Of a stretch of 64,000 nucleotides of DNA, positions 338 through 20,118 are shown in pieces. Origin of the DNA: Actinoalloteichus caeruleus DSM 43889 (lineage in GTDB: Bacteria; Actinomycetota; Actinomycetes; Mycobacteriales; Pseudonocardiaceae); contig NZ_AUBJ02000001.1 in NCBI RefSeq assembly GCF_000429185.2, forward strand, positions 3,286,001 to 3,350,000, in the 5' to 3' direction. Under the pieces are notes generated by a model, which worked only from the letters and a program-made list of their open reading frames with translations, had not been told where the DNA came from and did not search any database. The stretch's first letter is position 1. Each line of letters begins with the position of its first letter. The position numbers and the translations under genes are program-made.

Positions 338-3754
<3,417 letters not shown>

Positions 3755-3888
3755 ACCCCGATGCAACCACGACACCCCGACGCCGGTGACACCCGCGTCG
3801 GCGTGTCGGGCGCGTGACGTGGTCCGGGCGCCGCCGTCCGGAGTTCCTGCCCCGATGGCGGCGCCGGCCCCTGTGGTAGGCAGACCGG

Positions 3889-4206
3889 GTGAACGACGAA
3901 CTGGTGGAGCGGGTCCGCGAGGTGGTCCGGTCGATCCCCGCCGGACGCGTGCTCGGTTACGGCGATGTGGCCGAGCTCGCGGGTGCGCCCTCCCCGAGGC
4001 TGGTGGGACGGATCCTGGCCGAGGACGGCGCGGACCTGCCGTGGCACCGCGTGCTGCGTTCGGACGGGACCGTCGCCTCCCACCTCGCCGGTCGTCAGCT
4101 CGAGCGGCTGCGGGCCGAGGGCGTCGCCGCCCGGGACCGGCGGGTGGACATGCGCCAGTACCGGTGGCGGCCGGCGCCCCCGGGCCAGTCGGGGCTCTGG
4201 GACTGA
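3889..4206 (+). CDS. Alkyltransferase-like protein (MGMT family, ATL)
   Basis: A 105-residue protein with the O6-alkylguanine-DNA alkyltransferase fold: RVLGYGDVAELAG (helix-turn-helix with the arginine-finger region), RLVGRIL, then PWHRVL in place of the catalytic PCHRV. Tryptophan instead of the acceptor cysteine is the mark of ATL proteins, which bind O6-alkylguanine lesions and hand them to nucleotide excision repair rather than repairing them directly. Starts at GTG 3889. It is divergent from adnA, a repair neighbourhood also seen at Rv3204. Length matches typical ATLs (100-110 residues). Confidence 0.9.
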   Translation: MNDELVERVREVVRSIPAGRVLGYGDVAELAGAPSPRLVGRILAEDGADLPWHRVLRSDGTVASHLAGRQLERLRAEGVAARDRRVDMRQYRWRPAPPGQSGLWD

Positions 4207-4250
4207 CCGGGCTCCGGGACTGACGGGGGCCCCGGGACTGACGGGGCTCT
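4191..4250. repeat. Three imperfect 17-18 bp tandem repeats over the end of the ATL gene
   Basis: The block GGGACTGAC recurs at 4199-4207, 4216-4224 and 4234-4242, each set in a G/C-rich frame of the form ggggctc(c/t)gggactgac. The first copy contains the ATL stop codon (4204-4206), so the array begins inside the gene and continues beyond it. It lies between the convergent ATL and HemD-like genes. Confidence 0.8.
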
Positions 4251-4310
4251 CCCCCACCCGTTCGGTGTCGTGTCCGGGCGAGGCGCCGGGCCGCCGGGCG
4301 CGCGGCGGTA

Positions 4311-5153
4311 TCAACCGGCGCCCGTCGCGGCGACGAACGTCGGGAGTTCCCGTTCCAGCTGGCGCGCGAGCGCCCCGGTCCTGGGCCGGTCCGGGGTGCG
4401 GACGGGCAGCCCCTCCCGTTCGAGGGGTGCCGCGGTGACCGGACCCACGCAGGCCACGAGGCACGAGGTGCGCAGCGCTCGGCGGAGCGGCTCGCCCCTG
4501 CCGGTCCGCTCGGCCCGGCGGAGCAGGTTGGTGGCGGCCGGGGCACTGGTGAAGGTCAGGGCGTGGACCTCGGCCCGGGCCACCGCGTCGATCAGCGAGT
4601 CGAGGGGGCCGACGTCCTCCGGGTCGGTCCACCGGTAGACACCGACCGGGATGACCTCGGCGCCCCGACGACGGAGTGCCTCGCAGAACTCGGTCATCGG
4701 CTCCCCCTGCTCCTGAACGGCGATCCGCCGACCGTCGAGGTCCCGGCGGAGGAGCTCGTCGAGGACCTCGGCGACCGTCTCGGAGCCGGCCGTCCACGGA
4801 TCGGGCAGGCCGGCCCCCCGGACGGCGCCGCGTGCCTTCGGCCCGCGGGCCAGCACCTCGGCGGCTCCGAGCCGGCCCAACAGGCCCTCGCGCCGCCCTC
4901 GGCCCTCGGCGGTGTCCAGCCAGCCCCGGAAACCCACACCGGTGATCGCCACCACCAGGTCCACCGGGGCGGCGAGCACCGCATCCGTCGCGGCCGCGAG
5001 CCGGTCGTCGTCGGCGAGGGCGACGCTGCGGATCGCCGGCCCGTACACCACGCGGGCTCCTCGGCGCTCCAGCAGCCCGCCCAGTTCCTCGGCCCGGCGG
5101 GCCGCCGTCACCCCCACGGTCAGCCCGAGCAGCGGGCGGTGGTCCTGCGCCAT
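4311..5153 (-). CDS. Uroporphyrinogen-III synthase family protein (HemD-like)
   Basis: A 280-residue HemD-fold protein. It opens with LLGLTVGVTAARRAEELGGLLERRGARVVYGP, shown here only by its key pattern (Val-Thr-Ala-Arg-Arg then Leu-Leu-Glu-Arg-Arg-Gly-Ala), and continues with VAITGVGFRGWL, VAVQEQGEP-type and LTFTSAPAATNLL segments typical of the two lobes. HemD cyclises hydroxymethylbilane in heme/cobalamin synthesis. Actinobacteria often carry a second HemD-like gene fused to a DNA-binding domain (Rv0260c type); here only the HemD domain is present and no other heme genes are near. Start chosen at ATG 5151-5153, where family similarity begins. It may have a non-biosynthetic role. Confidence 0.7.
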   Translation of the reverse strand: MAQDHRPLLGLTVGVTAARRAEELGGLLERRGARVVYGPAIRSVALADDDRLAAATDAVLAAPVDLVVAITGVGFRGWLDTAEGRGRREGLLGRLGAAEVLARGPKARGAVRGAGLPDPWTAGSETVAEVLDELLRRDLDGRRIAVQEQGEPMTEFCEALRRRGAEVIPVGVYRWTDPEDVGPLDSLIDAVARAEVHALTFTSAPAATNLLRRAERTGRGEPLRRALRTSCLVACVGPVTAAPLEREGLPVRTPDRPRTGALARQLERELPTFVAATGAG

Positions 5154-5234
5154 CGGCCCATCCTCGTCTCTCCTCGGCCCGCTGAACAGGGGGTCGTCCC
5201 CGGTTCCGACCCCTGGGCGCACCCCGCCGCGCAC

Positions 5235-5272
5235 CCCGCTCACGTGAAGATCGAAAATTTCACCTGAGCGGG
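5235..5272. promoter_or_regulatory. Large imperfect palindrome (candidate operator)
   Basis: Two 14-base arms (5235-5248 and 5259-5272) pair with a single mismatch around a 10-base A/T-rich loop; the outer half-site is CCCGCTCA, the inner GTGAA. The right arm overlaps the inferred -35 element of the methyltransferase promoter, so repressor binding here would block that gene. It lies in the divergent interval between the HemD-like gene and the methyltransferase. Confidence 0.65.
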
Positions 5273-5287
5273 TGAGCCGCCTAGGAT
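5258..5287 (+). promoter_or_regulatory. Candidate promoter of the methyltransferase gene
   Basis: A -10 hexamer TAGGAT (5282-5287) is preceded by TTTCAC (5258-5263) with an 18-base spacer. TAGGAT is a close match to actinobacterial housekeeping -10 boxes. Transcription would begin near 5294, about 37 bases ahead of the ATG at 5331. Confidence 0.5.
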
Positions 5288-5330
5288 TTCGGCGGTTGCG
5301 TCGTCAACGTTCGGCTGACTGGGGTGTTGG

Positions 5331-6128
5331 ATGGACTCGGATGGCCCTGACCTGGCACGAGTTGATCTCGGTGCTCCAGGTCTGGCCCGCGTCGTCGACC
5401 ACCTGCTCGGGGGAGCGCACAGCTTCGCCGTCGACCGGGAGGCCGCGGACGTGCTCGAGTCGGAGATCCCGGGCATCCGGCAGGCGATCCACCAGACCCG
5501 CTCCTTCCTGGGACGCGCGGTGCGGTACCTCCTCCGCCGAGGTGTGCGCCAGTTCCTCGACCTCGGCGCGGGGCTGCCCGGCGTGGGCAGCGTGCACGAG
5601 ATCGCCGCCGCCAGCGGCCGGCCCGCACGGGTGGTCTACGTGGACAACGACCCGATGACGGTGGCGCACGCCAGGCACATGGTCCGGCTCGTGCCGCACA
5701 CCGCCGCCATCCTCACCGACCTCCGGTCGCCGGCCCTGGTGCTCGACCACGCGGAGTCACGGGCGGTGATCGACCCGGACGAACCCCTGGGCGTCCTGTT
5801 GTCCGACGCGCTGCCCGCCGTGCCGGAACCGATCGGGGAGGTGCTCGACGGCTACCTGGACCGCATGGTCGACGGCAGCTACCTGGCGCTGGCCCATCCC
5901 ACCAGCGAGGGATGGCCCGGAGACGGGAGCCGGTCGAGTGGGGCCTGGGCGCCGGTGGTGCTGCGGACGGCGGCCGACGTGCACGCCCTCTGGGATCGGC
6001 TCGACCTGGTACCGCCCGGAGTGGTGCCCGTGCAGGACTGGCGGCCGGACACACCCCTCGACGAGGTGAGCCAGGAGTGCCCGGTGCCGGTGCTGGCGGG
6101 TCTGGGACGCGTGCGCCCCCGGGTCTGA
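5331..6128 (+). CDS. SAM-dependent methyltransferase (DUF574 / Methyltransf_19)
   Basis: A 265-residue protein of the actinobacteria-specific DUF574 family. Visible marks are the family opening with ARVVDHLLGGAHSFAVDREAA, summarised here as an Asp-x-Leu-Leu-Gly-Gly segment, the SAM-binding FLDLGAGLPG, the acidic strand end VVYVDNDPM and the LALAHPTSEG segment. Many actinomycete genomes hold numerous copies of unknown substrate. It is a single gene with its own promoter and operator candidates upstream, and converges on the next gene over a hairpin at 6129-6146. Confidence 0.85.
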   Translation: MDSDGPDLARVDLGAPGLARVVDHLLGGAHSFAVDREAADVLESEIPGIRQAIHQTRSFLGRAVRYLLRRGVRQFLDLGAGLPGVGSVHEIAAASGRPARVVYVDNDPMTVAHARHMVRLVPHTAAILTDLRSPALVLDHAESRAVIDPDEPLGVLLSDALPAVPEPIGEVLDGYLDRMVDGSYLALAHPTSEGWPGDGSRSSGAWAPVVLRTAADVHALWDRLDLVPPGVVPVQDWRPDTPLDEVSQECPVPVLAGLGRVRPRV

Positions 6129-6146
6129 GCGCGGCTCCGGCCGCGC
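6129..6146. terminator. Hairpin between convergent genes
   Basis: A perfect 7-bp stem (GCGCGGC / GCCGCGC) with a TCCG loop sits immediately after the methyltransferase stop and before the convergent stop at 6151. There is no U-tract, as is usual in high-GC actinobacteria. Likely bidirectional. Confidence 0.6.
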
Positions 6147-6150
6147 GTCC

Positions 6151-6948
6151 TCAGAGGACCTCGAGCACCAGCTGGGTGGCTCGTTCCAGCCCGGCGAGCG
6201 ACTGAGGCGTGGACCTCGGGTGCAGGGCGTTGACCGCGAGCCTGAACAACAGGGCGTGCAACAGGGACTGCTCCCACTCGGGCAGGTGGGACCACCTGCG
6301 GATCAGGCCAGGATCCGCTCCTCCCCAGGCGAGCCCGTCGACCACCACGACCGCGGCGGCCCACTCGGCCGGCCGCCAGTAGGGCGTGAAGTCGATGACG
6401 CCCGGCGAGGAGTCCCGGCTGAACAGCACGTTGCCGAACAGGTCGCCGTGCACCACCTGCGCCCGGAGCCGGGAATGGCGTCGGGACCCCAGCAGCACCT
6501 CGAACAGCCGCCCGCCCCGGTCCGGGTCGAGGGTGGTCTCCTCCTCGCCCCACGCCATCCGGTCCGCGACCGAGAAGACGTCACGGCGTTCGTCGAGGAA
6601 CCGGGGCCGAGCGAGCCCGGCGGTGGCGTCGTGCAACCGGAGGGAGACGGCGACGACCTCGTCGTGGCGGGCCTCCGGCTGCCCGGTCAGGAACCGGGAC
6701 GCCGCCCAGCCGGACACGACCCACCGCCCGTCCGAGGACCGAACGGACCGGGAGAGCCGCAGGTCGTCCGGGTGCAGTGCCCCGAGGATGGTGGCCGCCC
6801 ACGCCGCCTCGGCCGGGTTGGACACCGGTCTGAGGACGATCTCACCGCACCGCCACACGCCGGCCGGATCCAGTGGTTCCGGCTCGTCATCCCTGGCACC
6901 GAACGCCGCACGCACGTGCAACGGCGGCGGCTCGGGGGTCACACTCAC
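6151..6948 (-). CDS. TIGR02569-family aminoglycoside phosphotransferase-like protein
   Basis: A 265-residue protein matching the Rv3205c type. The kinase-like signature VVHGDLFGNVLF (equivalent to the HGDxxxxN catalytic loop) and GVIDFTPYWRP (metal-binding Asp) are present, so phosphotransfer is plausible though no substrate is known for this family. Starts at GTG 6948. It lies just downstream of moeZ on the same strand, the gene order of Rv3206c-Rv3205c. Confidence 0.85.
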   Translation of the reverse strand: MSVTPEPPPLHVRAAFGARDDEPEPLDPAGVWRCGEIVLRPVSNPAEAAWAATILGALHPDDLRLSRSVRSSDGRWVVSGWAASRFLTGQPEARHDEVVAVSLRLHDATAGLARPRFLDERRDVFSVADRMAWGEEETTLDPDRGGRLFEVLLGSRRHSRLRAQVVHGDLFGNVLFSRDSSPGVIDFTPYWRPAEWAAAVVVVDGLAWGGADPGLIRRWSHLPEWEQSLLHALLFRLAVNALHPRSTPQSLAGLERATQLVLEVL

Positions 6949-7038
6949 GGGTAGGCACGCTACCGTGGGTGGCCCGGGACGCGGTAGAAACCCAGGTCCG
7001 CCCGGCGTGGGCGCCGGTCGTCGCCCCCGGCCGGGTGG

Positions 7039-8208
7039 TCAGTACGTCGGCAGACCGGGGTCCACGTCCCTGGCCCAGCCGAGCACGCCTCCCCCGACGT
7101 GGCTGGCGTCGGAGAAACCAGCCCGGTGCAACGCGGCCAGTGCCTCCGCGGACCGCATCCCGGACTTGCAGTGCAGGACGATGGGCTGGTCCTGCGGCAG
7201 TTCCGAGAGGGCCTCGCCGGACAGGATGCGGTCCTTGGGGATCAGCACCGAACCGGGGATGCGGACGATCTCGTACTCGTGGGGCTCCCGGACATCGACG
7301 AGGCTGAACTTCTCGCCCCGGTCGAACTTCTCCTTGAGCTCCCTGGGCGTGATCGTGTGGTCGGCCGCCGCCTGCTGGGCGTCCTCCGGGACGACTCCGC
7401 AGAAGGAGTCGTAGTCGATCAGCTCGGTGACCGGCTCGGCGTTGGGGTCGCGCCGGATCCGGATCGTCCGGTAGCTCATCTCCAGGGCGTCGTACACCAT
7501 CAGGCGTCCCAGCAGGGTCTCGCCCACCCCGGTGATCAGCTTGATCGCCTCGGTCACCATCACCGAGCCGATCGAGGCGCACAGGACGCCGAGGACGCCG
7601 CCCTCGGCGCAGGACGGGACCATCCCGGGGGGCGGCGGTTCCGGGTAGAGATCGCGGTACTGGGGTCCGTGCTCCGCCCAGAAGACGCTGACCTGCCCCT
7701 CGAACCGGAAGATCGAACCCCACACGTAGGGCTTGCCGAGCAGGACGGCCGCGTCGTTGACCAGGTAGCGGGTCGCGAAGTTGTCGGTGCCGTCCAGGAT
7801 GAGGTCGTACTCGCGGAAGATGTCCAGCGCGTTGCTGGAGTCCAGGCGGACGCGGTGGACGTTCACCGTGACGAAGGGGTTGGTCTCCGCGATCGACTCG
7901 CGGGCCGACTCGGCCTTGGGCTTGCCGAGGTCGGACTGGCCGTGGATGATCTGCCGTTGCAGATTGGACTCGTCGACCTCGTCGAAGTCGACGATGCCGA
8001 GCGTGCCCACCCCGGCCGCGGCCAGGTACAGCAGCGCTGGGCTACCCAGGCCACCGGCCCCGATCACCAGCACCCTGGCGTTCTTGAGCCGCTTCTGCCC
8101 CTCCATCCCGACGTCCGGGATGATCAGGTGCCTGCTGTAGCGGGCGACCTCCTCCCTGGTCAGTTCCTCGGCGGGTTCGACAAGCGGCGGTAGCGTCGCC
8201 CCTGGCAT
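7039..8208 (-). CDS. moeZ: Adenylyltransferase/sulfurtransferase MoeZ
   Basis: A 389-residue E1-like protein with a C-terminal rhodanese domain. The adenylating domain has the nucleotide loop VLVIGAGGLGSP and the Arg-finger region DESNLQRQ; the rhodanese part starts near residue 290 and ends with the persulfide-bearing loop HCKSGMRS. MoeZ proteins activate and thiolate the C-terminus of ubiquitin-like sulfur carriers (MoaD, CysO, thiamin- and natural-product carriers). The ATG at 8206-8208 is preceded by a strong ribosome binding site (GGAGGA). No sulfur-carrier gene is adjacent, consistent with a shared housekeeping role. Confidence 0.93.
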   Translation of the reverse strand: MPGATLPPLVEPAEELTREEVARYSRHLIIPDVGMEGQKRLKNARVLVIGAGGLGSPALLYLAAAGVGTLGIVDFDEVDESNLQRQIIHGQSDLGKPKAESARESIAETNPFVTVNVHRVRLDSSNALDIFREYDLILDGTDNFATRYLVNDAAVLLGKPYVWGSIFRFEGQVSVFWAEHGPQYRDLYPEPPPPGMVPSCAEGGVLGVLCASIGSVMVTEAIKLITGVGETLLGRLMVYDALEMSYRTIRIRRDPNAEPVTELIDYDSFCGVVPEDAQQAAADHTITPRELKEKFDRGEKFSLVDVREPHEYEIVRIPGSVLIPKDRILSGEALSELPQDQPIVLHCKSGMRSAEALAALHRAGFSDASHVGGGVLGWARDVDPGLPTY

Positions 8209-8387
8209 TGGCTGTCCTCCTCGTCACCGGCGAGACCGGCACAGTGTGCCTCTCCCGGGGAACGCGCGGACAGGCCACCGGAATTCCCGTCCCAACCAGT
8301 GGACGGCACCGGGGTACCGGGCGGTGGCTCCGCCTCCGTCCATGCCATGCGGACGCCGGGGGACACCACGGACACCGGCGGCCGTGG

Positions 8388-9491
8388 TCACTCGACCGTC
8401 GGGTGCGGCCAGCCGTTGGGCTTGCACACCTTGCCGTCCGCCGGGATGGCCTGGCCGCCCTGCCCGGTTCCCTCGATCAGCTCGTGCAGCTCGTCGTTGC
8501 TCGTGCTCCAGCTCTGCTGCATCATCACCGGCGCGAGGCCGCCGTCGATGTCGCACGGGACGTGGCCGTGTCCGAAGTAGTGGCCGACCTCGTGGTTGAT
8601 CAGGTACGCCTGGTACTGGGCCATCGCGCCCTCGAAGGCGCGGCCCCCGCGCACCCAGCGGGCGGCGTTGAGGAACACCCCCTCGGGGCGGCGGCACGAC
8701 GCCTCGAAGTCGACGCCGCCCCCGCACTTGAGCTTGGCGTGCGCCTGGGAGATCAGGATGACCCGGAAGTCGGCCTCCTCGACGGTGTCCACCCGTTGCA
8801 CCGAGATGGCTTCGCTGCCGATCCAACTGCGGGGGTCGGAGAGGGTGGCCTCCACCGTGTTGGCGTAGGCCTCCACGTCGAGGGGGACGTCGAAGCCGAC
8901 CTCGTACTCCACGGTGTAGCGGTGGAGGGAGTCCCCCTCCCCCACCGGCTCGGAACGCCCCGGCACGATGTCGTAGGTCCCCGCGCCCGTCGTCGGGAAG
9001 GGGCCGCCGTTCGGGAGTTCCGCCGAGATGACGTCCGGGTCGAAGGACGGGTTGGCGTCGAAGCTGACGCTGGGCTCCGCCGGTTCCGTGCCCGGGGTGC
9101 CGCCCGCTCCTCCGGTGGCGTCGGAGTTCGGGGCCTCCTCCGCCGTGTGCTCGGCGTCCTCACCCGGGGTCCTGGCCACGTCGACCGCGACGATGATGGT
9201 CAGGACGAGCAGCACGGGCAGGGCGTACACCCGCCAGCTCGGTGCCCGGCGGGACCGGGTACGACCTGAGGAGCTCCCCTCGCCACCGTCGACGGTCCTC
9301 GGCGAGTCCGCCTGGTCCTCGTCCCGCGCTCCGGCCTCCGGGGCCCAGGAGGCGGCAAGCGGTTCTCCCGTGGTCCGCCTCGAGTCCCGCTGGTAGCGCT
9401 TCTCGCTGGGGCGCCGCCGCGCCGGCCTCCGATTGTCCGATCCTCGGGAGGTGGGCCGGGGGCGGCCGGGACCACCGGCGTCGGGGTTCAT
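8388..9491 (-). CDS. DUF3152 membrane-anchored zinc-protease-like protein
   Basis: About 367 residues: a basic, disordered N-terminus, one membrane helix (about residues 84-104, YALPVLLVLTIIVAVDVA), an acidic/proline linker and an extracytoplasmic C-terminal domain. That domain contains NHEVGHYFGHGH, a HExxHxxGHxH zinc site resembling metzincins, plus cysteines likely in disulphides. It corresponds to Rv3207c-type proteins of unknown substrate. Start taken at ATG 9489-9491; a GTG three codons upstream (9500) is equally possible. It is followed on the same strand by moeZ after 180 bp. Confidence 0.85.
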   Translation of the reverse strand: MNPDAGGPGRPRPTSRGSDNRRPARRRPSEKRYQRDSRRTTGEPLAASWAPEAGARDEDQADSPRTVDGGEGSSSGRTRSRRAPSWRVYALPVLLVLTIIVAVDVARTPGEDAEHTAEEAPNSDATGGAGGTPGTEPAEPSVSFDANPSFDPDVISAELPNGGPFPTTGAGTYDIVPGRSEPVGEGDSLHRYTVEYEVGFDVPLDVEAYANTVEATLSDPRSWIGSEAISVQRVDTVEEADFRVILISQAHAKLKCGGGVDFEASCRRPEGVFLNAARWVRGGRAFEGAMAQYQAYLINHEVGHYFGHGHVPCDIDGGLAPVMMQQSWSTSNDELHELIEGTGQGGQAIPADGKVCKPNGWPHPTVE

Positions 9492-9518
9492 CGGTGCCAC
9501 GCCGCAAAGCGTGCCACA

Positions 9519-10697
9519 TCAGGCACCGAGAACATTTCCTCCTACCCTGGTGTCGGCGGTCGATGTGGGTGAATTCCCACCGTCGGGCTCCCACTGGTCC
9601 TCGGCCAGGGCGTCGATCATCCCGAGGACCGCTCGACCCACCGCCATCGGCTGTTCCATCTGCGCGACGTGCCCGGTCCTGGGGAGCACGAGCAGCCGAG
9701 CCCTCGGGAGCGCCAACGCCGTACGCGTGGCCTTGCGGACGCTGACCAGGCGGTCCTCCGCACCCCAGACCACCAGCGCCGGGGCTGGCACCCGGCGAAG
9801 CACCCGCCACGGCGAACGCGCGCCCGAGGCCAACCAGCTCCTGACCATGTTGAGCGAGGTCTCCCCCATGGCGACACCGGCCCAGGGGTTGCGGCCGAGT
9901 TCCGCGAGCTCGTCGGCGAGCTCGGCGAGCCGGTGGGTGGGCACGAGTTCCGGCCTGGCGAAGCACAACCGGCGCAGCTGCTCGGCGCGCCGCGCCGGGG
10001 GCACCCTGGCCAGCGCGCGCCGCACCCTCGGGCCGAGGAGCGGGAGGAAGGTCAGGGGGTAGCGGGGCTCGGTGAGCCGCCCCGGGTTCGGCCTCAGGTC
10101 GGGCACCGCCGGTGACACCAGGGTCAGGGTGCTGACCAGCTCGGGCCAGCGGGCGGCGACCTCGGCGCACACCAGTCCGCCGAAGGAGTTGCCCACGAGG
10201 TGGGCCGGCCCGCCGGCGAGCCGCCGCAGGCTCTCGGCGAGGAAGTCGGCGTGCTCGTCGAGGCCGTACCCGAAGTGGGCCGGGGGTTCCGAACGGCCGA
10301 ATCCGGGGAGGTCCACGGCGAGGGTCGGGTGCCGGACGGCGAGCACACCGGCGAGATCGGTCCAGTTGGTGGCGGAACCGGCCAGCCCGTGCACGCACAC
10401 GACGGGTGCCGCCTCCTCGGTGGAGGTGCTCGGGGTCTCCCGCACGTGCACGCGGCCGCGCCCCACCTCGACCTGCCGCCCTGGCCAGGGCGGTCGCCGG
10501 TGGTCGATGGCGGGCACCTCCCCGGTGAACATGGGCACCCAGGTCAGTGACCTCCTCGGGTCGGGCCGGCGGCCGTCGACCCGACCGGCGGTCGCCTCCC
10601 GGTGCCGGTCACCCTGCCACCGGCCGAGCTGCGCCCAGGCCGCCGTGAACTGGCTCCGCACCCGGGCGCTCAGCGCCCCCCACGTCGGCACCGTCAT
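9519..10697 (-). CDS. Alpha/beta hydrolase
   Basis: A 392-residue alpha/beta-hydrolase with oxyanion segment VCVHGLAGSATNW, nucleophile elbow GNSFGG, acid-bearing VVWGAEDRLV and the catalytic His in LPRTGHVAQME. Start at ATG 10695-10697; the first 100 residues are an N-terminal extension before the hydrolase core. It is divergent from the TetR gene (193 bp apart) and runs toward DUF3152, so TetR control is possible. Substrate unknown. Confidence 0.87.
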   Translation of the reverse strand: MTVPTWGALSARVRSQFTAAWAQLGRWQGDRHREATAGRVDGRRPDPRRSLTWVPMFTGEVPAIDHRRPPWPGRQVEVGRGRVHVRETPSTSTEEAAPVVCVHGLAGSATNWTDLAGVLAVRHPTLAVDLPGFGRSEPPAHFGYGLDEHADFLAESLRRLAGGPAHLVGNSFGGLVCAEVAARWPELVSTLTLVSPAVPDLRPNPGRLTEPRYPLTFLPLLGPRVRRALARVPPARRAEQLRRLCFARPELVPTHRLAELADELAELGRNPWAGVAMGETSLNMVRSWLASGARSPWRVLRRVPAPALVVWGAEDRLVSVRKATRTALALPRARLLVLPRTGHVAQMEQPMAVGRAVLGMIDALAEDQWEPDGGNSPTSTADTRVGGNVLGA

Positions 10698-10890
10698 ACG
10701 TCCAGGATGCCAAGGGAACGCTGGGGCGGCAGCGCCACCGAGTCCGCCCGAACGGGTGCCGCCCACTCGGACAGGTGACGCCCCGTCCGCAGCCGTGCCG
10801 CACAACTGCGACTACCAGCGAGTAAGGTCAGGCAACTGGCGGAGCCAGGACCACCGCACGGTGTGCGGGACATGCTGGAGGCGAGAAGAC

Positions 10891-11526
10891 ATGACGGAAA
10901 CCACGCGCGAATCCGCGGAGCAGGCGGGCCGCGGGGTCCGGTTGCCCCGCACGGAGAGGCGGGCGCAGCTCCTCGCCTCCGCGCAGGACGTGTTCGTCGC
11001 CAACGGGTACCACGCCGCGGCGATGGACGAGATCGCCGACAGGGCCGGCGTCAGCAAACCCGTCCTCTACCAGCACTTCCCCGGCAAGTTGGAGCTCTAC
11101 CTCGCCCTGCTCCAGCAGAAGGTGGAGGACATGGTCAGCCGTGTGAACACGGCGATCGAGTCGACGACGGACAACAAGCTCCGGGTGCACGCGGCCGTGG
11201 CCGCGTACTTCGACTTCGTGAACGCGGAGGACGGGTCGTTCCGGTTGGTCTTCGAGTCGGATCTCCGGGGCGAGGCGGCCGTGGAGCAGACCATCGACCA
11301 CGCGATGTCCCGCTGCGTCGAGCTGATCGCCGAGGCCGTCACCGCCGACGCCGGTCTCGATCCGGAACGCGCGAGCCTCGTCGCGATGGGCCTGGTGGGG
11401 CTGAGCCAGGTGACCGCGCGCTACTGGCTGACGAGGAACCGGCTCGTCCCCCAGGAGGAGGCGATCGAGCTGATCGCCAGCCTCGCCTGGCGCGGCATCA
11501 GCGGCTTCCCCCTCCAGCACCCCTGA
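10891..11526 (+). CDS. TetR/AcrR family transcriptional regulator
   Basis: A 211-residue TetR protein. The helix-turn-helix is clear (IADRAGVSKPVLYQHFPGK, about residues 53-71) and the C-terminal ligand domain is regular. It is the positional equivalent of Rv3208. The ATG at 10891 has a good ribosome binding site (GGAGGCG). It is divergent from the alpha/beta hydrolase, the usual arrangement for a local repressor, but no operator could be pinned down. Confidence 0.9.
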   Translation: MTETTRESAEQAGRGVRLPRTERRAQLLASAQDVFVANGYHAAAMDEIADRAGVSKPVLYQHFPGKLELYLALLQQKVEDMVSRVNTAIESTTDNKLRVHAAVAAYFDFVNAEDGSFRLVFESDLRGEAAVEQTIDHAMSRCVELIAEAVTADAGLDPERASLVAMGLVGLSQVTARYWLTRNRLVPQEEAIELIASLAWRGISGFPLQHP

Positions 11527-11567
11527 CATCCACCGGGGGTCGCCAGCTCATCCGCTCCGGCGGCGGG

Positions 11568-11598
11568 CGGGCCGCGCCCCGAGCTGGGACGCGGCCCG
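11568..11598. terminator. Hairpin between convergent tetR and DUF3107
   Basis: A perfect 9-bp stem (CGGGCCGCG at 11568-11576, its complement at 11590-11598) with a 13-base loop, placed between two converging stop codons (11526 and 11606). Probably a shared terminator. Confidence 0.55.
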
Positions 11599-11605
11599 GC
11601 CGAGA

Positions 11606-11833
11606 TCAGGCGATGCCGAACCCGACCCGCCTGGTGTCCGCGGGGCCGATCTCGACGTAGGCGACCCGCGCGGTCGGTACGACGAAGCGACGCCCCTTGT
11701 CATCGACCAGGCTCAGCAGCTTCTGCTCGCCGCTCAGCGCGTCGCTGACCGCCGTCTCCACCTCGTCCGGTGTCTGCGAGCTGGTGAGGACGAGCTCTCG
11801 TGAGCTGTCCGCCACACCGATCTTGACCTCCAC
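11606..11833 (-). CDS. DUF3107 family small protein
   Basis: A 75-residue protein with the DUF3107 pattern: VEVKIGVADSSREL, TPDEV, the LVDDKGRRFVVP strand and VAYVEIG near the end. It equals Rv3208A (TB9.4) by position and length. The GTG at 11831-11833 follows a ggagg ribosome binding site at the right distance. The family has no established function. Confidence 0.88.
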   Translation of the reverse strand: MEVKIGVADSSRELVLTSSQTPDEVETAVSDALSGEQKLLSLVDDKGRRFVVPTARVAYVEIGPADTRRVGFGIA

Positions 11834-12019
11834 GCCGACCTCCGGTCGTCGATCCTGAACCAACCGGGTCAGGCTAATGGAATTCGCGGTCCGCCCGGCG
11901 CGCACCCGTTCGTCGGGAGGGCGGCCGGGTCGGGCCGGCGGCCCCGCTGTTCCCGCCTCGCGGCCAGGGCCACGACCACCCCCTGGACCCCGGCTGGCGC
12001 CGGGCGTCGCGGCCAGGCC

Positions 12020-12727
12020 TCACCCCAGGCCCAACGCTCCCATCCGCTTGGTGTGGGTGGTCTGGAGACGTCGCAGCAACGCACCGATGCCCGCCAGGTC
12101 CCCCGACCCCCGGATGACCAGCTCCGTGAGCCCGTCCCGCTCGGCGGCCACCCGCTGCGCCTGGGTGACGGCCTCCCCCAGCAGGCGGCGGGCCCAGAGG
12201 GTGAGGCGGTCGCGCAGCGACCGGTCCCCTTCGCAGGCCGCCCGGACCTCGCGTTCCGCGAAGGCCGAGTACCCGGTGTCGGCCAGCACCTCCAGGACGA
12301 GGTCCCGGGTGCGGGGGTCGAGCCAGTTCGCCACCTCGCGGTAGAAGTCGGCGGCGAGGCCGTCACCCACGTAGGCCTTGACCAGGGACTCCAGCCAGGA
12401 CCGGGGGGCCGTGGAGGTGTGGAAGTCGTCGAAGGGCTTCGCGAAGGGCCGCATCGCGTCCTCGATGGGGACGCCCACCGTCCCCAGGTGCTCCTCCAGG
12501 CGCCGGTAGTGCCCCATCTCCGCGGCGGCCATGTTCGCGAGCGCCGCCCGTCCCGCCAACGTCGGCGCGGTTCTGGCGTCCTCGGCCAGCCGGTCGAAGG
12601 CCGACAGTTCCCCGTAGGCCAGCACCCCCAGCAGGTCGACGACCCCGTCCGCTACCGGGGTGGCGTCGGGTCCTCGGTCGGTGCGGACGTCCCCCTGCTC
12701 GGGGGCGGGCCGATCAGACGTGGTCAT
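12020..12727 (-). CDS. Ferritin-like fold protein (MiaE-like family)
   Basis: A 235-residue all-helical protein of the Rv3210c type, related to the di-iron tRNA hydroxylase MiaE. A four-helix arrangement is visible with Glu and ExxH-like residues: [24 protein letters not shown], then later helices ending in [13 protein letters not shown]. Whether all iron ligands are intact was not tested. Start at ATG 12725-12727. Divergent from rhlE. Confidence 0.78.
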
Positions 12728-13056
12728 GGTCGCGGAGCCTAGTCGCGGGGTCCCCGCTTTCCCACCCGCGCGGCGGTCCGCGGCCCCCGGAGGGCGGCCC
12801 TGTGAGCGACGCGACCAGGACTCGGGTCCGGCGTACTGGGGTTGGTTGCCCTCTCGGGGTAACCTGACGGTGATGCATGTGCCGGTCATCGCGCACCGCC
12901 AGCCAGCCGGTCCCTCGCGCGGCGGCGTTCACGAGCGGCGGTGCTACCGGATGCACACCCGAACTGTGGCGGCCACGCCGCCATGTGCACAGAGTGCGCG
13001 CACTGAAACCTCGGCCCTCCCGCGCCGGACACCGACGAGCACGTCGCTCACGTGTC
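12728..13056. other. Leader region upstream of rhlE
   Basis: A -10-like TAACCT (12860-12865) lies seven bases before ATG 12873, which opens a leaderless reading frame running to 13166 and overlapping the start of rhlE in another frame. The resulting rhlE leader would be about 185-245 bases. No RNA structure is recognised. The upstream frame looks compositionally non-coding. Confidence 0.4.
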
Positions 13057-14850
13057 GTGACCGTGGTCGAGCGCCCTGCCACAGCCGTGCGCGCTGGTAC
13101 GAGAGAGGCGATCACTCTGACAACGAACAACGACACCGACACACCGGGGCCCTCGGCCTCCGCTGAGACCGGTTCCCCCGACGAGGTGCGGATCGACCAC
13201 AGCGAGACCGGCGCCGAGAACGCCCAGCCGGCGCCCCACCCCCTGCACGCGTCGGCGCCACCCGAGCCGGCGGCACCCACGTTCGCCGAACTGGGGGTGC
13301 TGCCCGCGATCACCCAGGCGCTCGACGAGGCGGGCATCACCCACGCCTTCCCGATCCAGCAGCTCACGCTGCCACTGGCGCTGGCCGGCGACGACGTCAT
13401 CGGCCAGGCCAGGACGGGGACCGGGAAGACCCTGGCCTTCGGCGTGCCGATGCTCCAGCGGGCCGAGCTGCCCGGTGACGGGACGCCGCAGGCGCTGATC
13501 GTCGTTCCCACCCGGGAGCTCTGCACCCAGGTGACCAGGGACATCACCGACGCCGCCCAGCACCTCGGGGTGCGGACGCTGGCCGTGTACGGCGGCCGCC
13601 CCTACGAGCCGCAGATCGCGGCGCTGCGGGCCGGCGTCGACATCGTGGTGGGCACCCCCGGGCGGCTCCTGGACCTCGCGGAACAGCGCCACCTCGTCCT
13701 CGGCAAGATCCGAGGGCTGGTCCTCGACGAGGCCGACGAGATGCTCGACCTGGGCTTCCTGCCCGATGTCGAACGCATCCTCAGCATGGTCCCGGGCGAG
13801 CGGCAGACGATGCTGTTCTCGGCGACCATGCCCGGTCCGATCGTCACCCTGGCCAGGACGTTCCTGCGCCAGCCGACCCACGTCCGGGCCGAGGAGGTCG
13901 ACGCGGGTGCGGTGCACGAACGGACGAAGCAGTTCGTGTACCGGGCGCACGCCCTCGACAAGACCGAGCTGATCGCCCGGGTGCTCCAGGCCGAGGACCG
14001 GGGGCTGAGCATGATCTTCACGCGGACGAAGCGCACCGCGCAGAAGATCTCGGACGAGCTCGCCGAGCGCGGGTTCGCCTCCGCCGCCGTGCACGGCGAC
14101 CTGGGGCAGGGCGCGCGGGAGCAGGCCCTCCGCGCGTTCCGGGCCGGCAAGGTCGACATCCTGGTGGCCACCGACGTCGCGGCCCGGGGAATCGACGTGG
14201 CGGGTGTCACCCACGTCATCAACTACCAGTGCCCGGAGGACGAGAAGACCTACGTGCACCGCATCGGCCGGACGGGCCGCGCCGGCCGCGAGGGTGTGGC
14301 CGTCACCCTCGTCGACTGGGACGAGGAACCCCGCTGGAAGCTGATCAACGACGCGCTCGACCTGGGCCGCCCGGAACCGGTGGAGACCTACTCCACCTCC
14401 GACCACCTCTTCGAGGACATCGGCATCCCGCGTGACGCCTCCGGTCGCCTCCCCCTGGGCCGCCGCACGAGGCCGGGTCTGGACGCCGAGCCGGTGGAGG
14501 ACCTCGACCGCAACGAGCGGGCCGGCCGGAACCGTCGGCGCCGGGGTGGGACCGCCACCCGGGGTCGCGGCGGTGACCGCGCGGCCGCCAACGCCGAGCG
14601 GACGTCCGAGGGCTCTGCCGACCGGCCCGCGCCGAGCCGCAGGAAGCGCCGGCGCACCCGGGGTGGCGTCGCCGTGGGCGGTGAGAACGGCCCGCAGAGC
14701 AAGGAGTCGCAGGCCGTGAAGGAGACCGGCTCAGCCGACCAACCCTCGGGTGGGGGCGCTCCGCGCCGCAGGAGGCGGCGGCGCCTGGGCTCGGCCGGGG
14801 AGTCGACCACCGCCGGCGGTTCCGGGCAGCAGGGTGAGAACGCCGGCTGA
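13057..14850 (+). CDS. rhlE: DEAD-box RNA helicase RhlE-like
   Basis: About 597 residues. Helicase motifs: Q motif (FPIQQLTLP), ARTGTGKT, PTRELC, GTPGRLLDL, LDEADEM, SAT, and RIGRTGRAGR in the second RecA lobe. The last 150 residues form an Arg/Gly-rich basic tail typical of RNA-binding extensions. It is the positional match of Rv3211. The start is uncertain: GTG 13057 is given, but a CTG at 13117 follows a GAGAGAGG ribosome binding site with correct spacing and would yield an N-terminus LTTNNDTD. Confidence 0.92.
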   Translation: MTVVERPATAVRAGTREAITLTTNNDTDTPGPSASAETGSPDEVRIDHSETGAENAQPAPHPLHASAPPEPAAPTFAELGVLPAITQALDEAGITHAFPIQQLTLPLALAGDDVIGQARTGTGKTLAFGVPMLQRAELPGDGTPQALIVVPTRELCTQVTRDITDAAQHLGVRTLAVYGGRPYEPQIAALRAGVDIVVGTPGRLLDLAEQRHLVLGKIRGLVLDEADEMLDLGFLPDVERILSMVPGERQTMLFSATMPGPIVTLARTFLRQPTHVRAEEVDAGAVHERTKQFVYRAHALDKTELIARVLQAEDRGLSMIFTRTKRTAQKISDELAERGFASAAVHGDLGQGAREQALRAFRAGKVDILVATDVAARGIDVAGVTHVINYQCPEDEKTYVHRIGRTGRAGREGVAVTLVDWDEEPRWKLINDALDLGRPEPVETYSTSDHLFEDIGIPRDASGRLPLGRRTRPGLDAEPVEDLDRNERAGRNRRRRGGTATRGRGGDRAAANAERTSEGSADRPAPSRRKRRRTRGGVAVGGENGPQSKESQAVKETGSADQPSGGGAPRRRRRRRLGSAGESTTAGGSGQQGENAG

Positions 14851-14906
14851 TCCGGCGACGTGGGATCACGAGCGGCCGGCTGGTGCCCGGGGCGGAGGGG
14901 CGGGAC

Positions 14907-16118
14907 GTGGTGAAGCCTGAGCGGCGGACACGCGGGGACGTCGTCGTGGCCAGCCTGCTCATGGTGGGCGTGCTGGCGGTGGGAGCGGTGCTCTGGCGCA
15001 CCAGCGACCTCGCCGGGACGACGGCTGAACCGTCCGTGCTCCCCGTCGTGGCGCCTGACCCGGCGGTCGCGCTGCCCGCCGGGCTCCAGGAGCTCTGGCG
15101 GGCGGACAGCCCGGCGACGAGTTCACCGGTGGTCGCGGGGCCCGCCGTCGCCACCGCCTCGGGCGGCGAGGTCGTGGGCCGGGACGCGCTCACCGGGGAA
15201 CCCCGCTGGCGTTACGCGCGTGACCTGGAGCTGTGCACGGTGTCGGCGGCATGGGAACGCGCCGTCGCCGTGTACCGGCGCGGCGACTTCTGCTCGGAGG
15301 TGACCACGCTGGACGGGGCGACCGGGGACCGGGCCGGGCAACGGCACGGCGACTCCGAACCGGCCACGGAACTGGTCACCGACGGCCGCTACGTCGCCAC
15401 GACGGGCGAACGGTTCGTGGAGATCTTCGGCTCCAACATGGTGATGACCCTGGAGTACGGGGACGTGCCAGCCGTGGTGAACCCGAACCGGCAGCCGAGG
15501 AGCGACTGCCGGTACCTGTCCACCCTGCTGGCCGAGGGCCGGCTGGCGCTCATCGAGCGGTGCCCCACGGACGTGACCGACCGGGTGACGCTGTTGACCG
15601 CGAAACCGGACGACAGCGACCGCCCGGAGGAGACGTACAGCCAGACCCTGGACGACGTCGGTGCTCGGCTCGTCGCGCTCACCGACGACCACCTGGCCCT
15701 CTGGCTGCCGAACCCCTCGCGGATCGTCGTGTACGACACCGAGCGGGGCGACCGGCTGGCGGAGCACCCGGTCGACACCACGGCCGAGGACCTGGACCGG
15801 GCGTCGTCCCAGGTGCCCGAGACCACGGCGTCTCCCAGCCACGTCTACTGGTACACGGGTCGGAGCACGGTCGCCCTGTCGCTGTCCGACCTGAGCCCGT
15901 CCTGGTCGGTCCCGGACACCCTGGGGTCCGGGGCGGTGCTCGCGGGCCGGTTGCTCGTTCCCGAGCCCGGCGGTCACGCCGTCGTCGACACCGTGACCGG
16001 CGAACGGGTCGCGACGCTGCCCGTCGACCGGGGCGGGCACGCGGGTCCGGTGCGGACCTCCGTCCTCGGCCCGGTGCTGCTGGAACAACGTGCCAGCGAG
16101 GTCGTGGCGCTCGGCTGA
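14907..16118 (+). CDS. Membrane-anchored beta-propeller (PQQ-like) protein
   Basis: About 403 residues with one N-terminal membrane helix (VVASLLMVGVLAVGAVLW) and an extracytoplasmic region made of repeated beta-strands of the PQQ/WD type (for example DALTGEPRWRYARDL, TLDGATGD, VDTVTGERVATL). It matches Rv3212 in position and plan. The GTG at 14907 is preferred because a GGAGGGG ribosome binding site precedes it; an in-frame GTG at 14883 lacks one. It follows rhlE by 56 bp and may be cotranscribed. Function unknown. Confidence 0.82.
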   Translation: MVKPERRTRGDVVVASLLMVGVLAVGAVLWRTSDLAGTTAEPSVLPVVAPDPAVALPAGLQELWRADSPATSSPVVAGPAVATASGGEVVGRDALTGEPRWRYARDLELCTVSAAWERAVAVYRRGDFCSEVTTLDGATGDRAGQRHGDSEPATELVTDGRYVATTGERFVEIFGSNMVMTLEYGDVPAVVNPNRQPRSDCRYLSTLLAEGRLALIERCPTDVTDRVTLLTAKPDDSDRPEETYSQTLDDVGARLVALTDDHLALWLPNPSRIVVYDTERGDRLAEHPVDTTAEDLDRASSQVPETTASPSHVYWYTGRSTVALSLSDLSPSWSVPDTLGSGAVLAGRLLVPEPGGHAVVDTVTGERVATLPVDRGGHAGPVRTSVLGPVLLEQRASEVVALG

Positions 16119-16320
16119 CCCGCGCACCTCGGTCCGGCCGCGCCCGCCGGGGCGTCCGCTCCCGAGTCCGCACCGCTCGTCGAAGCGGGGGGCCCGCCCG
16201 CGCGGGCCGCACGCGGTGGGTTCGCGACCAGGTCGGGGGACCTCCGGCGGCCTCGGGAGTGTGGTGGGCGAACCCGCCCGGGGCAGGCGTGATCGGCCCG
16301 GGATGGGGCACACTGATGCA

Positions 16321-17199
16321 GTGACTGTTGTGCGTGGATCCGAGATGAGTCCGCACCGTGCGATCCCGGTCCAGCTCCCGACCGAATACGGCGAGCTGTC
16401 AGGTCTGCACGGAACGTCACAGGCCCGCACCGTGCTGGCCACCGCCGTGCTCCTGCCCGGGTACACGGGCTCCAAGGAGGACTTCGCCGCGCTGATCGAC
16501 CCGCTCACGGAGGCGGGTTTCGACGTGCTCACCATCGACCTTCCCGGCCAGTACCAGTCGGACGGGCCCGACGACGAGGACGCCTACCGACCGTCCCGGC
16601 TCGGGGTGGTGATCGCCAACCTCGTCTCCCGCCTCCGGTCCGAGGGACGCCGGGTCCTGCTGCTCGGCCACTCCTACGGCGGTCTGGTCGCGCGGGCCGC
16701 CGTGCTCTCCGGGGCCGAACCCGTGGGTCTCACCCTGCTCGCGTCGGGGCCGTCAGCCCTGCCCCCCGGCCCGAGGCTCTCCCTGATCGAGTTGTGCGAG
16801 CCGGCGCTGCGCCTGCACGGCGTGGAGGCGGCGGCCCAGATCTACGAGGCGCACGACCCGGCCTGGTCGGCCAGACCGCGTGAGCTGCGCACCCTGCTGC
16901 GCGCCCGGTTGGTCTCGTCCATGCCCGCCGGGCTGCTCGGGATGGCGACCGCGTTGCGCACCGAACCCGATCTCGTTCCCGAACTCGCCGCCCGGATCCA
17001 GGAACACCGCATCCGGGGCTTCGTGGTGTGCGGCGAGCAGGACGACGTGTGGTCGGTGGAGACCCAACGCGAGATGGCCGAGAAGCTTGGCGTCGACTTC
17101 GTCACCGTCCCGGACTCGGGCCACAACCCCAACAAGGACAACCCGCAGGGGCTGCTGGACGTGCTCGTCCCCACCTGGCAGCGCTGGCTGCTCAGCTAG
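16321..17199 (+). CDS. Alpha/beta hydrolase
   Basis: A 292-residue serine hydrolase: oxyanion loop LLPGYTGSKEDF, nucleophile elbow GHSYGG, acid in VVCGEQDDVW and catalytic His in VPDSGHNPNKDNP. Such lysophospholipase-like hydrolases are common; the substrate cannot be inferred. GTG 16321 is probably close to the transcript end, as no ribosome binding site is seen. Confidence 0.85.
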   Translation: MTVVRGSEMSPHRAIPVQLPTEYGELSGLHGTSQARTVLATAVLLPGYTGSKEDFAALIDPLTEAGFDVLTIDLPGQYQSDGPDDEDAYRPSRLGVVIANLVSRLRSEGRRVLLLGHSYGGLVARAAVLSGAEPVGLTLLASGPSALPPGPRLSLIELCEPALRLHGVEAAAQIYEAHDPAWSARPRELRTLLRARLVSSMPAGLLGMATALRTEPDLVPELAARIQEHRIRGFVVCGEQDDVWSVETQREMAEKLGVDFVTVPDSGHNPNKDNPQGLLDVLVPTWQRWLLS

Positions 17200-17358
17200 G
17201 CGGCCGCGGCCGGCGACGCCCCGTGCGACCCCGGCCGGGCGGCACGCCCCGAGGCCGCCCCGCTGCCGGCCCTTGAGTCGCCTCGTCCCCGCTCCGCCGC
17301 CCCGGCCCATCGAGGCGCGGCACCGCCCGGCGACGGGGATCAGCCCCCGGGTGGGGGG

Positions 17359-17730
17359 TCAGTGCCACCACCCGGTCCAGAGCAGCCACCCGGCGACGAG
17401 CACCACCAGGACCGGCGCCCACCACCGGGCGGAGCGGGCACTGCGGTCGGCGTACGCCTGCAGCCCGACGGCGACCACGCTCGCCCCCAGGTGAAGTGCC
17501 ACGAACCCGTACCCCGGCCCGGGGTAGCCGCGGTGCAGCGCGAGGACCTGGAGGCCCAGCACGACGAGGGCGAGCACCACCAGCCCGGCGGCCACGGCGC
17601 CGCTGAACCCGCGCCACCCCCGGTTCGCCACTCCGCCTCGGGTCGACGGGGGAACCACTCGAAGGCCGAGGACGTCGGTGTCCTCAGTGGAGTTGGTGAT
17701 GGGCCGGGGTAGCCGGTGAGTTCCGCTCAC
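17359..17730 (-). CDS. Small integral membrane protein
   Basis: A 123-residue protein with three predicted membrane helices (VAAGLVVLALVVLGLQVLAL; YGFVALHLGASVVAVGLQAY; WWAPVLVVLVAGWLLW). Its GTG start (17728-17730) overlaps the TGA of the RecB-like gene in a GTGA arrangement, indicating translational coupling. The pair resembles Rv2119/Rv2120c. No function known. Confidence 0.72.
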   Translation of the reverse strand: MSGTHRLPRPITNSTEDTDVLGLRVVPPSTRGGVANRGWRGFSGAVAAGLVVLALVVLGLQVLALHRGYPGPGYGFVALHLGASVVAVGLQAYADRSARSARWWAPVLVVLVAGWLLWTGWWH

Positions 17731-18560
17731 GGTGCCAACAGATCCCACGGTTCCAGGTCGGGCGCGGCGGCCCTCCCCTCCGGACAGGAGCGCCGGAACT
17801 CGCAGACCGAGCAGCCCCGCCCGGGACGCGGCGGGAAGTGCTCGTCGGGGTCAGCTCCCCGGTCGAGGGCCGACGCGGCGGCGGAGAGTTCCTCCGCGAT
17901 CCGTTCGGCGTGCCTCCGGTGCTCGGCCAGCGTTTCCGCGTCGTGGTCCCACGCCACCACCCGGCCGGTCGGGAGGTGGTGCAGCTCCACCCGGCTGCCG
18001 GGTCGGCGCAGGGTGCGCCGGGCCGCCATCAGGTAGAGGGCCAGCGCCCGCGAGTCGCGGGCGTCCTCCGTGGTGAGCACGTGCCGCCCGGTCTTGTAGT
18101 CGACGACCACGAGCTGGCCGTCCCGGTCGTCGATCCGGTCCACCCGGCCCTCGACGATCAGCGCACCGGTCGGGGCGGACACCCAGCGTTCGAGGGCGAC
18201 CGGTTCCCCGGCCGCCTCCGGGCGACGGGCGTACTCGTCCAGCCACTTCGCCGCCCGCGACCGGTACTCGGCCGCCTGCTCCCGGTCGCGGAACCCGTCG
18301 CCCTTCCAGTACCGGCGGAGCAGGACCGGCAGGTCCTCGGGGTCCCGCTGGTCCGGCGGGCTCTCGAAGTAGGCGCGGAGGACGTTGTGCACCACCGCCC
18401 CGAGGGTGCTGTGGGCCCAGGCGCCGCCCCGGGCCGGGGCGGGCCGGTCCAGGTACGTCGCGCGGTACCGACGTGGACAGTCCTCCCAGCGTTGGAGCCT
18501 GGCCGGGGTGACCCGGACCAGCTCCTTCGGCATGCCTTCCAAGCCCAACTGCCCTTGCAC
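17727..18560 (-). CDS. RecB-family nuclease (PD-(D/E)XK, Fe-S type)
   Basis: About 277 residues. Fe-S cluster cysteines frame the nuclease: CPRRY near residue 27 and CSVCEFRRSCP near the end. In between are VVHNVL (His of motif I), EGRVDRIDDRDGQLVVVDYKTGR (acidic Asp then DYKT), that is, the complete RecB catalytic set. The family cuts single-stranded DNA in repair or defence. Two starts are possible: GTG 18560 (given) and ATG 18533. Confidence 0.85.
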   Translation of the reverse strand: MQGQLGLEGMPKELVRVTPARLQRWEDCPRRYRATYLDRPAPARGGAWAHSTLGAVVHNVLRAYFESPPDQRDPEDLPVLLRRYWKGDGFRDREQAAEYRSRAAKWLDEYARRPEAAGEPVALERWVSAPTGALIVEGRVDRIDDRDGQLVVVDYKTGRHVLTTEDARDSRALALYLMAARRTLRRPGSRVELHHLPTGRVVAWDHDAETLAEHRRHAERIAEELSAAASALDRGADPDEHFPPRPGRGCSVCEFRRSCPEGRAAAPDLEPWDLLAP

Positions 18561-18666
18561 GCTGCCACGGTACGCACACCCGCCGGAACGGCTCGCGGTG
18601 ACCCGCCGACCTCGGTCCTGGTTCGGGACGCGCGGAGCCCTCCGCCGGACCGGCCGACCCGAGCCG

Positions 18667-19530
18667 TCAACCACCCCGGACGTGGTTACCGGTCGCCGAG
18701 GAGATCAACCGTTCGAACTGCTCCGGGTCGGTCGTCTCCTGGCCGATGCGGAGCGACTTGTGGACCCCGTGGTAGTCGCTGGAGCCGGTGGTGACGAGGC
18801 CGAGTTCGCGGGCGATACCGGCGAGCTCGGCGCGGGTCTCCGGATCGTGGTCGGGGTGGTTGACCTCCAGCCCCGCCAGGCCGCACTCGGCGAGGTCCGT
18901 GATCACCCCGGCCGTGACGACCGGGCCCCTCGCCCTGGCGAAGGGGTGGGCGAGCACGGTGACGCCGCCCGCGCGCCTGATCATCTCGATCGCCCGGCGC
19001 ACCGGGGTGTCCGCCCGGCGGAGGTGGTAGGGGCTGCCAGCGCCGAGGTAACGGGCGAAGGCCTCGTCCACGCTGGACACGACACCCGCGCGGACCAGTG
19101 CGGCGGCCAGGTGCGGCCGCCCTGCGGACGAGCTCTCCGGGAGCTCGGCGAGCAGCAGCTCGGGATCGACTGGGAACCCGTCCTCCCGCATCATCACGGC
19201 CATCCGCAGGAGGCGCTCGCGGCGTTCCGCGCGCAACCGGAGCTGCTCGTCCGCGAGCTCGCCCGAGGTGTCGTCGAACAGGTAGGCCAGCAGGTGGACC
19301 GTGACGTGGCGGCCGTTGCCGTCGGGGGACACGCAGGACAGCTCGGCGCCGGGGACGAGTCGCAGGCCGGGCGGGAGGGCGGCGGTGGCTGGCGCCCACC
19401 CGACGGTGGTGTCGTGGTCGGTGAGCGCCACCACGTCGAGTCCCGCGCGTGCCGCGGCAGCGACAAGCTCTTCTGGGCTGTCGCTGCCGTCGGACGCGGT
19501 GGAGTGGGTATGCAGGTCGATGCGCACCAC
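18667..19530 (-). CDS. PHP-domain phosphoesterase
   Basis: A 287-residue PHP protein with the full set of metal-binding motifs: DLHTHSTASDGS at the N-terminus, ALTDHDT, PGAELSC, VLAHPF and GSSDYHG. Close relatives are YciV/RnmAM-type 5'-nucleotidases/exoribonucleases acting on nucleoside bisphosphates or RNA 5' ends. Starts at one of two adjacent GTG codons (19530 or 19527). Confidence 0.88.
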   Translation of the reverse strand: MVRIDLHTHSTASDGSDSPEELVAAAARAGLDVVALTDHDTTVGWAPATAALPPGLRLVPGAELSCVSPDGNGRHVTVHLLAYLFDDTSGELADEQLRLRAERRERLLRMAVMMREDGFPVDPELLLAELPESSSAGRPHLAAALVRAGVVSSVDEAFARYLGAGSPYHLRRADTPVRRAIEMIRRAGGVTVLAHPFARARGPVVTAGVITDLAECGLAGLEVNHPDHDPETRAELAGIARELGLVTTGSSDYHGVHKSLRIGQETTDPEQFERLISSATGNHVRGG

Positions 19531-19548
19531 TCCAGTCTGACCGAGGAC

Positions 19549-20118
19549 CTAGCGTGCCTTCACCGCGCGCCGACGGCCCAGCGCCGCGCGACGGGCCTTC
19601 ATCATGGTGAAGCGGTCCTTGTCGGTCTTCTTCTCACCGAAGACCAGTTCGGAGATCGCGTCGTTGATCTCCTCGGGGTTGGGCGTGTACTCGATCCGGT
19701 CCAGGCCCTGGACCTGGCCCGCCGACTCCACGACCACGGTCCCGTAGCCCATGAGTCGACCGCCCAGGGTGCGTTGGAAGGTCAGGTCGGTCACCTTGCC
19801 GATGGGCATCATGGCGACCTTGGTGGTGAACACGCCGGTGGTGAGCATGAAGCGCTTGTCCGTGATCACGATCCGCTCCACCCACCACTCGAGGACGTAG
19901 TAGGAGAAGCGGAGCACGACCGCCAGCCCGGCGTACCAGAGCATGTTCTGGATCAGAGCCGAGTCCTGGGGGGCTAAGTAGGACACGAGCATCAGGCCGA
20001 CGAGCAGCGCGCCGGCCTCGAAGACGTCCCACATCATGCTCGCCCAGTGCCTGCGAACCCGGATCACCCGTCGCTCGGAGTCGAGCAGGTACTCGTCCGG
20101 ATCTCGTGGTGCCAGCAC
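19549..20118 (-). CDS. PH-domain (bPH2/DUF304) membrane protein
   Basis: A 189-residue protein with two membrane helices (about residues 32-50 and 58-77), followed by a bacterial PH domain (RIVITDKRFMLTTGVFTTKV ... GKVTDLTFQRTLGGRLMGYGT is the signature region). The family (YdbS/YdbT-like) is membrane-associated with unknown function. GTG start at 20118. Confidence 0.85.
   Translation of the reverse strand: MLAPRDPDEYLLDSERRVIRVRRHWASMMWDVFEAGALLVGLMLVSYLAPQDSALIQNMLWYAGLAVVLRFSYYVLEWWVERIVITDKRFMLTTGVFTTKVAMMPIGKVTDLTFQRTLGGRLMGYGTVVVESAGQVQGLDRIEYTPNPEEINDAISELVFGEKKTDKDRFTMMKARRAALGRRRAVKAR

Follow-up and report, generated by a model that had tools for sequence, protein, structure and literature searches.

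A 38-bp inverted repeat (dyad) lies between a hemD-like gene and a divergent gene for a DUF574 methyltransferase in Actinoalloteichus caeruleus, and it is probably an operator through which a symmetric transcription factor, dimeric or of the paired-dimer type, regulates the methyltransferase gene. It was found in a window of 64,000 nucleotides (64 kb), the whole stretch of DNA that was analysed. The initial annotation had called the site a credible operator. Its operator-like dyad stands, being kept and better paired in a sister species, while the strong promoter and the recurrence before DUF574 genes at large do not.

The dyad and the likely DUF574 promoter

The two arms of the dyad are 14 bases long and match at 13 of 14 pairs, with one mismatch, across a 10-nt spacer. 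This agrees with the body of the initial annotation, and so does the location in the divergent interval with hemD; its title, which spoke of 28-base arms, was right about the palindrome but gave the sum of both arms as the length of one. In its promoter region the inverted repeat is beyond chance, as expected of an operator: of 4000 sequences simulated with the length and composition of the 177-nt hemD-DUF574 interval, 10 (0.25%) scored as high, and 0 had the 14 that the sister species' dyad scores. Judged across the whole window, the score alone is unremarkable, because 12 dyads in the window score at least 11 and five simulated windows contain 1 to 4 each.

The right arm begins with the likely -35 hexamer (Table 1), which supports the earlier proposal that the dyad overlaps the -35 of the DUF574 promoter. 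The hexamer proposed at that time, TTTCAC (5258-5263), is 18 nt from TAGGAT and agrees with TTGACA at only 2 of 6 positions. Because TTCACC agrees at 4 of 6, the promoter reads better as TTCACC-N17-TAGGAT than as TTTCAC-N18-TAGGAT. By hand count, the preferred pair has 8 of 12 consensus positions. The promoter scan, with its threshold of at least 9 of 12, found none on either strand at the dyad region, so that the description of the promoter as strong was overstated. Transcription is predicted to start on the plus strand about 7 nt past TAGGAT, near 5294, which would place the dyad centre near -41. We infer the promoter, the start site, protein binding and the sign of control from the sequence.

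Table 1 Features of the dyad region, and identity of non-coding stretches to the sister species
Feature	Position	Strand	Remarks
Left arm of dyad	5235-5248	+	CCCGCTCACGTGAA
Spacer of dyad, 10 nt	5249-5258		Identical in the sister species
Right arm of dyad	5259-5272	+	TTCACCTGAGCGGG; begins with the likely -35
Likely -35 hexamer TTCACC	5259-5264	+	17-nt spacing to the -10; matches TTGACA at 4/6
Likely -10 hexamer TAGGAT	5282-5287	+	Falls in the 87-nt run 5276-5362, unchanged in the sister species
DUF574 / Methyltransf_19 S-adenosyl methyltransferase gene, 265 aa	5331-6128	+	PF04672, E 7.5e-62; 2qe6, 3giw
hemD-like gene (uroporphyrinogen-III synthase), divergent neighbour	4311-5153	-	PF02602, E 6.4e-34
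Non-coding, adjoining, hemD side	5154-5230		58/77
Non-coding	3830-3888		44/59
Non-coding, ATL-hemD gap	4207-4310		53/104
Non-coding	6129-6150		15/22
Non-coding	8209-8387		122/179
Non-coding	6949-7038		80/90, highest of the six

Conservation and distribution of the dyad

The comparison within the genus is one of two genomes, the home genome and one sister, apparently Actinoalloteichus spitiensis RMV-1378. The sister's dyad is at the orthologous place, 58 nt from the gene start as at home, and its arms are perfect (14/14). The sole difference inside the 38 bp is base 5243, a C at home and a G in the sister, where it makes the symmetry perfect. The nearest further differences are at 5275 and 5363 downstream and at 5229-5233 upstream. 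The dyad itself is identical at 37/38 positions, 5273-5330 at 57/58 and 5235-5363 at 126/129, and overall identity is 89.2% of 10,082 positions. Six other short non-coding stretches are 51-89% identical, most of them 51-75% (Table 1), and the possibly non-coding 9501-10071 is identical at 512 of 571 positions. The orthologous site is thus conserved between diverging flanks, as observed in one sister genome and with one gap as high as 80/90. The conserved block is on the DUF574 side, together with the promoter and leader of that gene.

Such conservation supports a function of the site, though other sites are equally conserved, as 414 of 9966 windows of 115 nt match or exceed 5249-5363. Of these 414 windows, predicted genes contain 218 entirely, and 79 have at least half their length outside such genes; the 79 are partly the dyad site itself and partly elsewhere, for example near 10.8 kb, a region of uncertain gene starts. 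In length, the invariant run 5276-5362 ranks fifth in the 10 kb, after runs of 126, 118, 89 and 88 nt, and two longer identical runs, 6845-6970 and 8164-8251, likewise extend into non-coding gaps.

Among the genomes searched, the dyad was seen only in this genus. Among 297 genomes of the family, searched with 0 mismatches allowed, the two of Actinoalloteichus gave the exact core CTCANGTGAA-N10-TTCACNTGAG, and the 295 others did not. A class sample of 394 genomes, some of them also in the earlier samples, was searched for the core with a spacer of N6-14 and again 0 mismatches; it was found only in the home genome itself. There were 0 matches to the dyad in viral contigs, and the hemD-DUF574 interval had no match in plasmids. 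A literature search found no report of the arm sequence TTCACCTGAG as a Streptomyces operator and no paper under the family name Methyltransf_19, and among the titles listed on operators, promoters or palindromes of Actinoalloteichus there was nothing on the site.

In the home genome the exact core occurs at one place only. Relaxing the dyad to at most 3 mismatches added one place, 532140 (3 mismatches), where G+C by codon position points to a probable coding frame. The half-site with at most 2 mismatches has 77 matches in this genome and the reversed pattern 36; only the two arms of the home dyad stand together, and we do not take the 77 matches for a regulon. Within the window, 8 half-site matches with at most 3 mismatches were found and 12.8 are expected. 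The initial annotation had named lack of repetition in this or related genomes as a ground for refutation; the home genome has a single copy, but the sister repeats the site, and the ground does not apply.

The half-site had also been expected before other DUF574 genes. We collected 110 DUF574 upstream regions, 30 loci from one search and the top 80 among the 547 of another, each measured from the start of the match. A core GTGAA-N4-20-TTCAC was present in 3 of the 110, all loci of the two genus members, and in 2 of 550 shuffles. Two of these loci (L003 and L035) are apparently one locus of one species. The core was found at 0 of the 107 other loci, which may contain duplicates (L027 and L039 look alike), so the expected recurrence was not borne out. 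Of the six DUF574-type matches in the home genome, the other five have no dyad within the mismatches searched. Inverted repeats with a score of at least 10, any terminators included, were found in 21 of the 110 upstream regions and 15 of the 550 shuffles; as the repeats other than the home site (three loci) differ from it in sequence and may include terminators, this excess does not speak for an operator shared by DUF574 genes.

Some individual upstream regions contain dyads of their own. Three Streptomyces loci (L084, L099 and L103) have imperfect dyads with look-alike arms (GGCCGTCAA-like), 92-95 nt before the DUF574 match, and these are possibly an operator common to that DUF574 subfamily. 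Very long dyads, with 21/21 and 26/28 pairs, precede DUF574 in Actinomadura violacea (L052) and a Micromonospora (L066) and are possible terminators.

Flanking genes and alternative readings

The gene downstream of the dyad is a member of PF04672, with 209.7 bits over a curated cut-off of 26 bits, and thus of the DUF574 / Methyltransf_19 proteins that include PDB entries 2qe6, 3giw and 3go4. 3giw has been described as a protein of unknown function with a structure like SAM-dependent methyltransferases, for which an unidentified ligand in the structure prompted the suggestion of a possible phenylethanolamine N-methyltransferase (PMC2954221). On the other side, hemD likely starts at 5153; with the gene read from there, the tblastn alignments of relatives start within its residues 1-8. 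A second hemD-like gene (G000:C1:5365420-5366208) is 58% identical to the dyad-side hemD.

In Actinoalloteichus, the DUF574 gene and the dyad sit between hemD and gene 6151-6948, which we take to be Rv3205c-like by synteny with Mycobacterium. Two relatives (G006 and G014) have the order DUF3152, moeZ, the counterpart of 6151-6948, hemD and then ATL, with no DUF574 gene between; hemD adjoins the counterpart there, with gaps between matches of about 50 and 110 nt, and the dyad core is absent. Because the two genes are direct neighbours in these relatives, the DUF574 gene appears to have been inserted between them, together with its dyad, at the level of the genus. In another genome (G013) the gap between hemD and the counterpart is 2.3 kb, without a match to the home DUF574 gene, and in G002 and G018 the counterpart was not found within the 10 kb taken. 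We note that the DUF574 gene has the opposite orientation within the otherwise conserved order DUF3152-moeZ-(6151-6948)-hemD.

The dyad might control hemD as well as the DUF574 gene, with a minus-strand promoter starting hemD near 5271, inside the dyad, but we consider this unlikely. Suitable hexamers are present on the minus strand, TTGACG (5307-5302) and, after 18 nt, TAGGCG (5283-5278), and nearly all of their bases fall in the invariant run. However, TAGGCG is a poor -10, the scan gave no promoter on this strand either, and the hemD side of the interval is poorly conserved (Table 1). In addition, 30 more upstream regions of hemD, including two from the genus's second hemD copy, gave 0 copies of the home dyad, and the one dyad seen among them (L123) is weaker and of other sequence. 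That one regulator at one shared operator sets both hemD, in the haem/sirohaem pathway, and a newly inserted DUF574 methyltransferase appears quite improbable; if true, it would link the function of DUF574 in the genus with tetrapyrrole metabolism and offer a way into the role of the family. It is also unlikely that the dyad acts in RNA, as a hairpin at the 5′ end of a hemD message read from the minus strand, with an effect on stability or attenuation. The minus strand folds at -26.7 kcal/mol and has one terminator-like match at 5275-5260 (0.3 expected), but folding is expected of any such dyad, and both strands fold (z of -4.97 for the minus strand and -4.49 for the other) because a dyad must. 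Conservation peaks in the plus-strand promoter and leader, not in the stretch between dyad and hemD; the fold of the conserved leader 5288-5345 is not unusual (z 0.36). A search of 4000-6500 against Rfam, up to E = 1, matched the dyad to no known structured RNA. A terminator between hemD and DUF574 was rejected, as the genes diverge.

It is also conceivable, at a very low probability, that the dyad arose by chance or is neutral and is common to both species by descent only. The comparison has two genomes only, with 11% overall divergence, each simulated window of 64 kb contains 1 to 4 comparable dyads, and other windows are equally conserved, all of which would suit such an origin. The 10 of 4000 simulations for the interval argue against it, as does a dyad at 37/38 while most non-coding gaps are at 51-75%, and the single difference between home and sister bears on the symmetry itself.

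A model of the proposed operator and its relation to known sites

In the operator reading that we prefer, a symmetric regulator, either a dimer or a paired dimer, would bind the 38-bp dyad and cover the -35 hexamer via the right arm, with the dyad centre some 41 bases upstream of the predicted start. The simplest outcome of binding would be a block to RNA polymerase, and hence repression. A class-II activator is conceivable as a second choice, because the -35 is weak and an activator could make up for it, but a repressor is somewhat likelier. Of the 17 predicted proteins from 338 to 20118 that were scanned, none next to the dyad is a regulator. The only regulator among them is TetR-like (residues 300-474 of ORF 10072-11526), about 5.7 kb away, and no half-site with at most 3 mismatches was found near it. 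The position of the TetR-type domains in this plus-strand ORF suggests that the real gene probably begins well inside.

Operators of the TetR family include paired-dimer types, such as those of QacR and CprB. The dyad resembles operators of dimeric repressors of this kind in having a long inverted repeat over the -35 and a single target, but differs from them in that no adjacent regulator gene was found and in its 14-bp half-sites 24 bp apart; to our knowledge, such half-sites fit no operator consensus. The consensus of the Rex operator is TTGTGAA-N4-TTCACAA, and the inverted core GTGAA...TTCAC is common to it and the dyad. We rejected Rex against this consensus, as the spacing is 10 nt in the dyad and 4 in Rex. 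The PHO box of Streptomyces consists of direct repeats of GTTCACC in 11-nt steps; both arms of the dyad contain TTCAC, which continues with a C in the right arm, but as single, inverted units. PHO box, GlnR, HspR, LexA and CRP sites were rejected by comparison with consensus sequences only.

If bound as proposed, the dyad would be a new example of a widespread type of element, an otherwise ordinary single-target operator. It would then also serve as bait for the regulator of the DUF574 methyltransferase, and hence lead to the condition that induces it.
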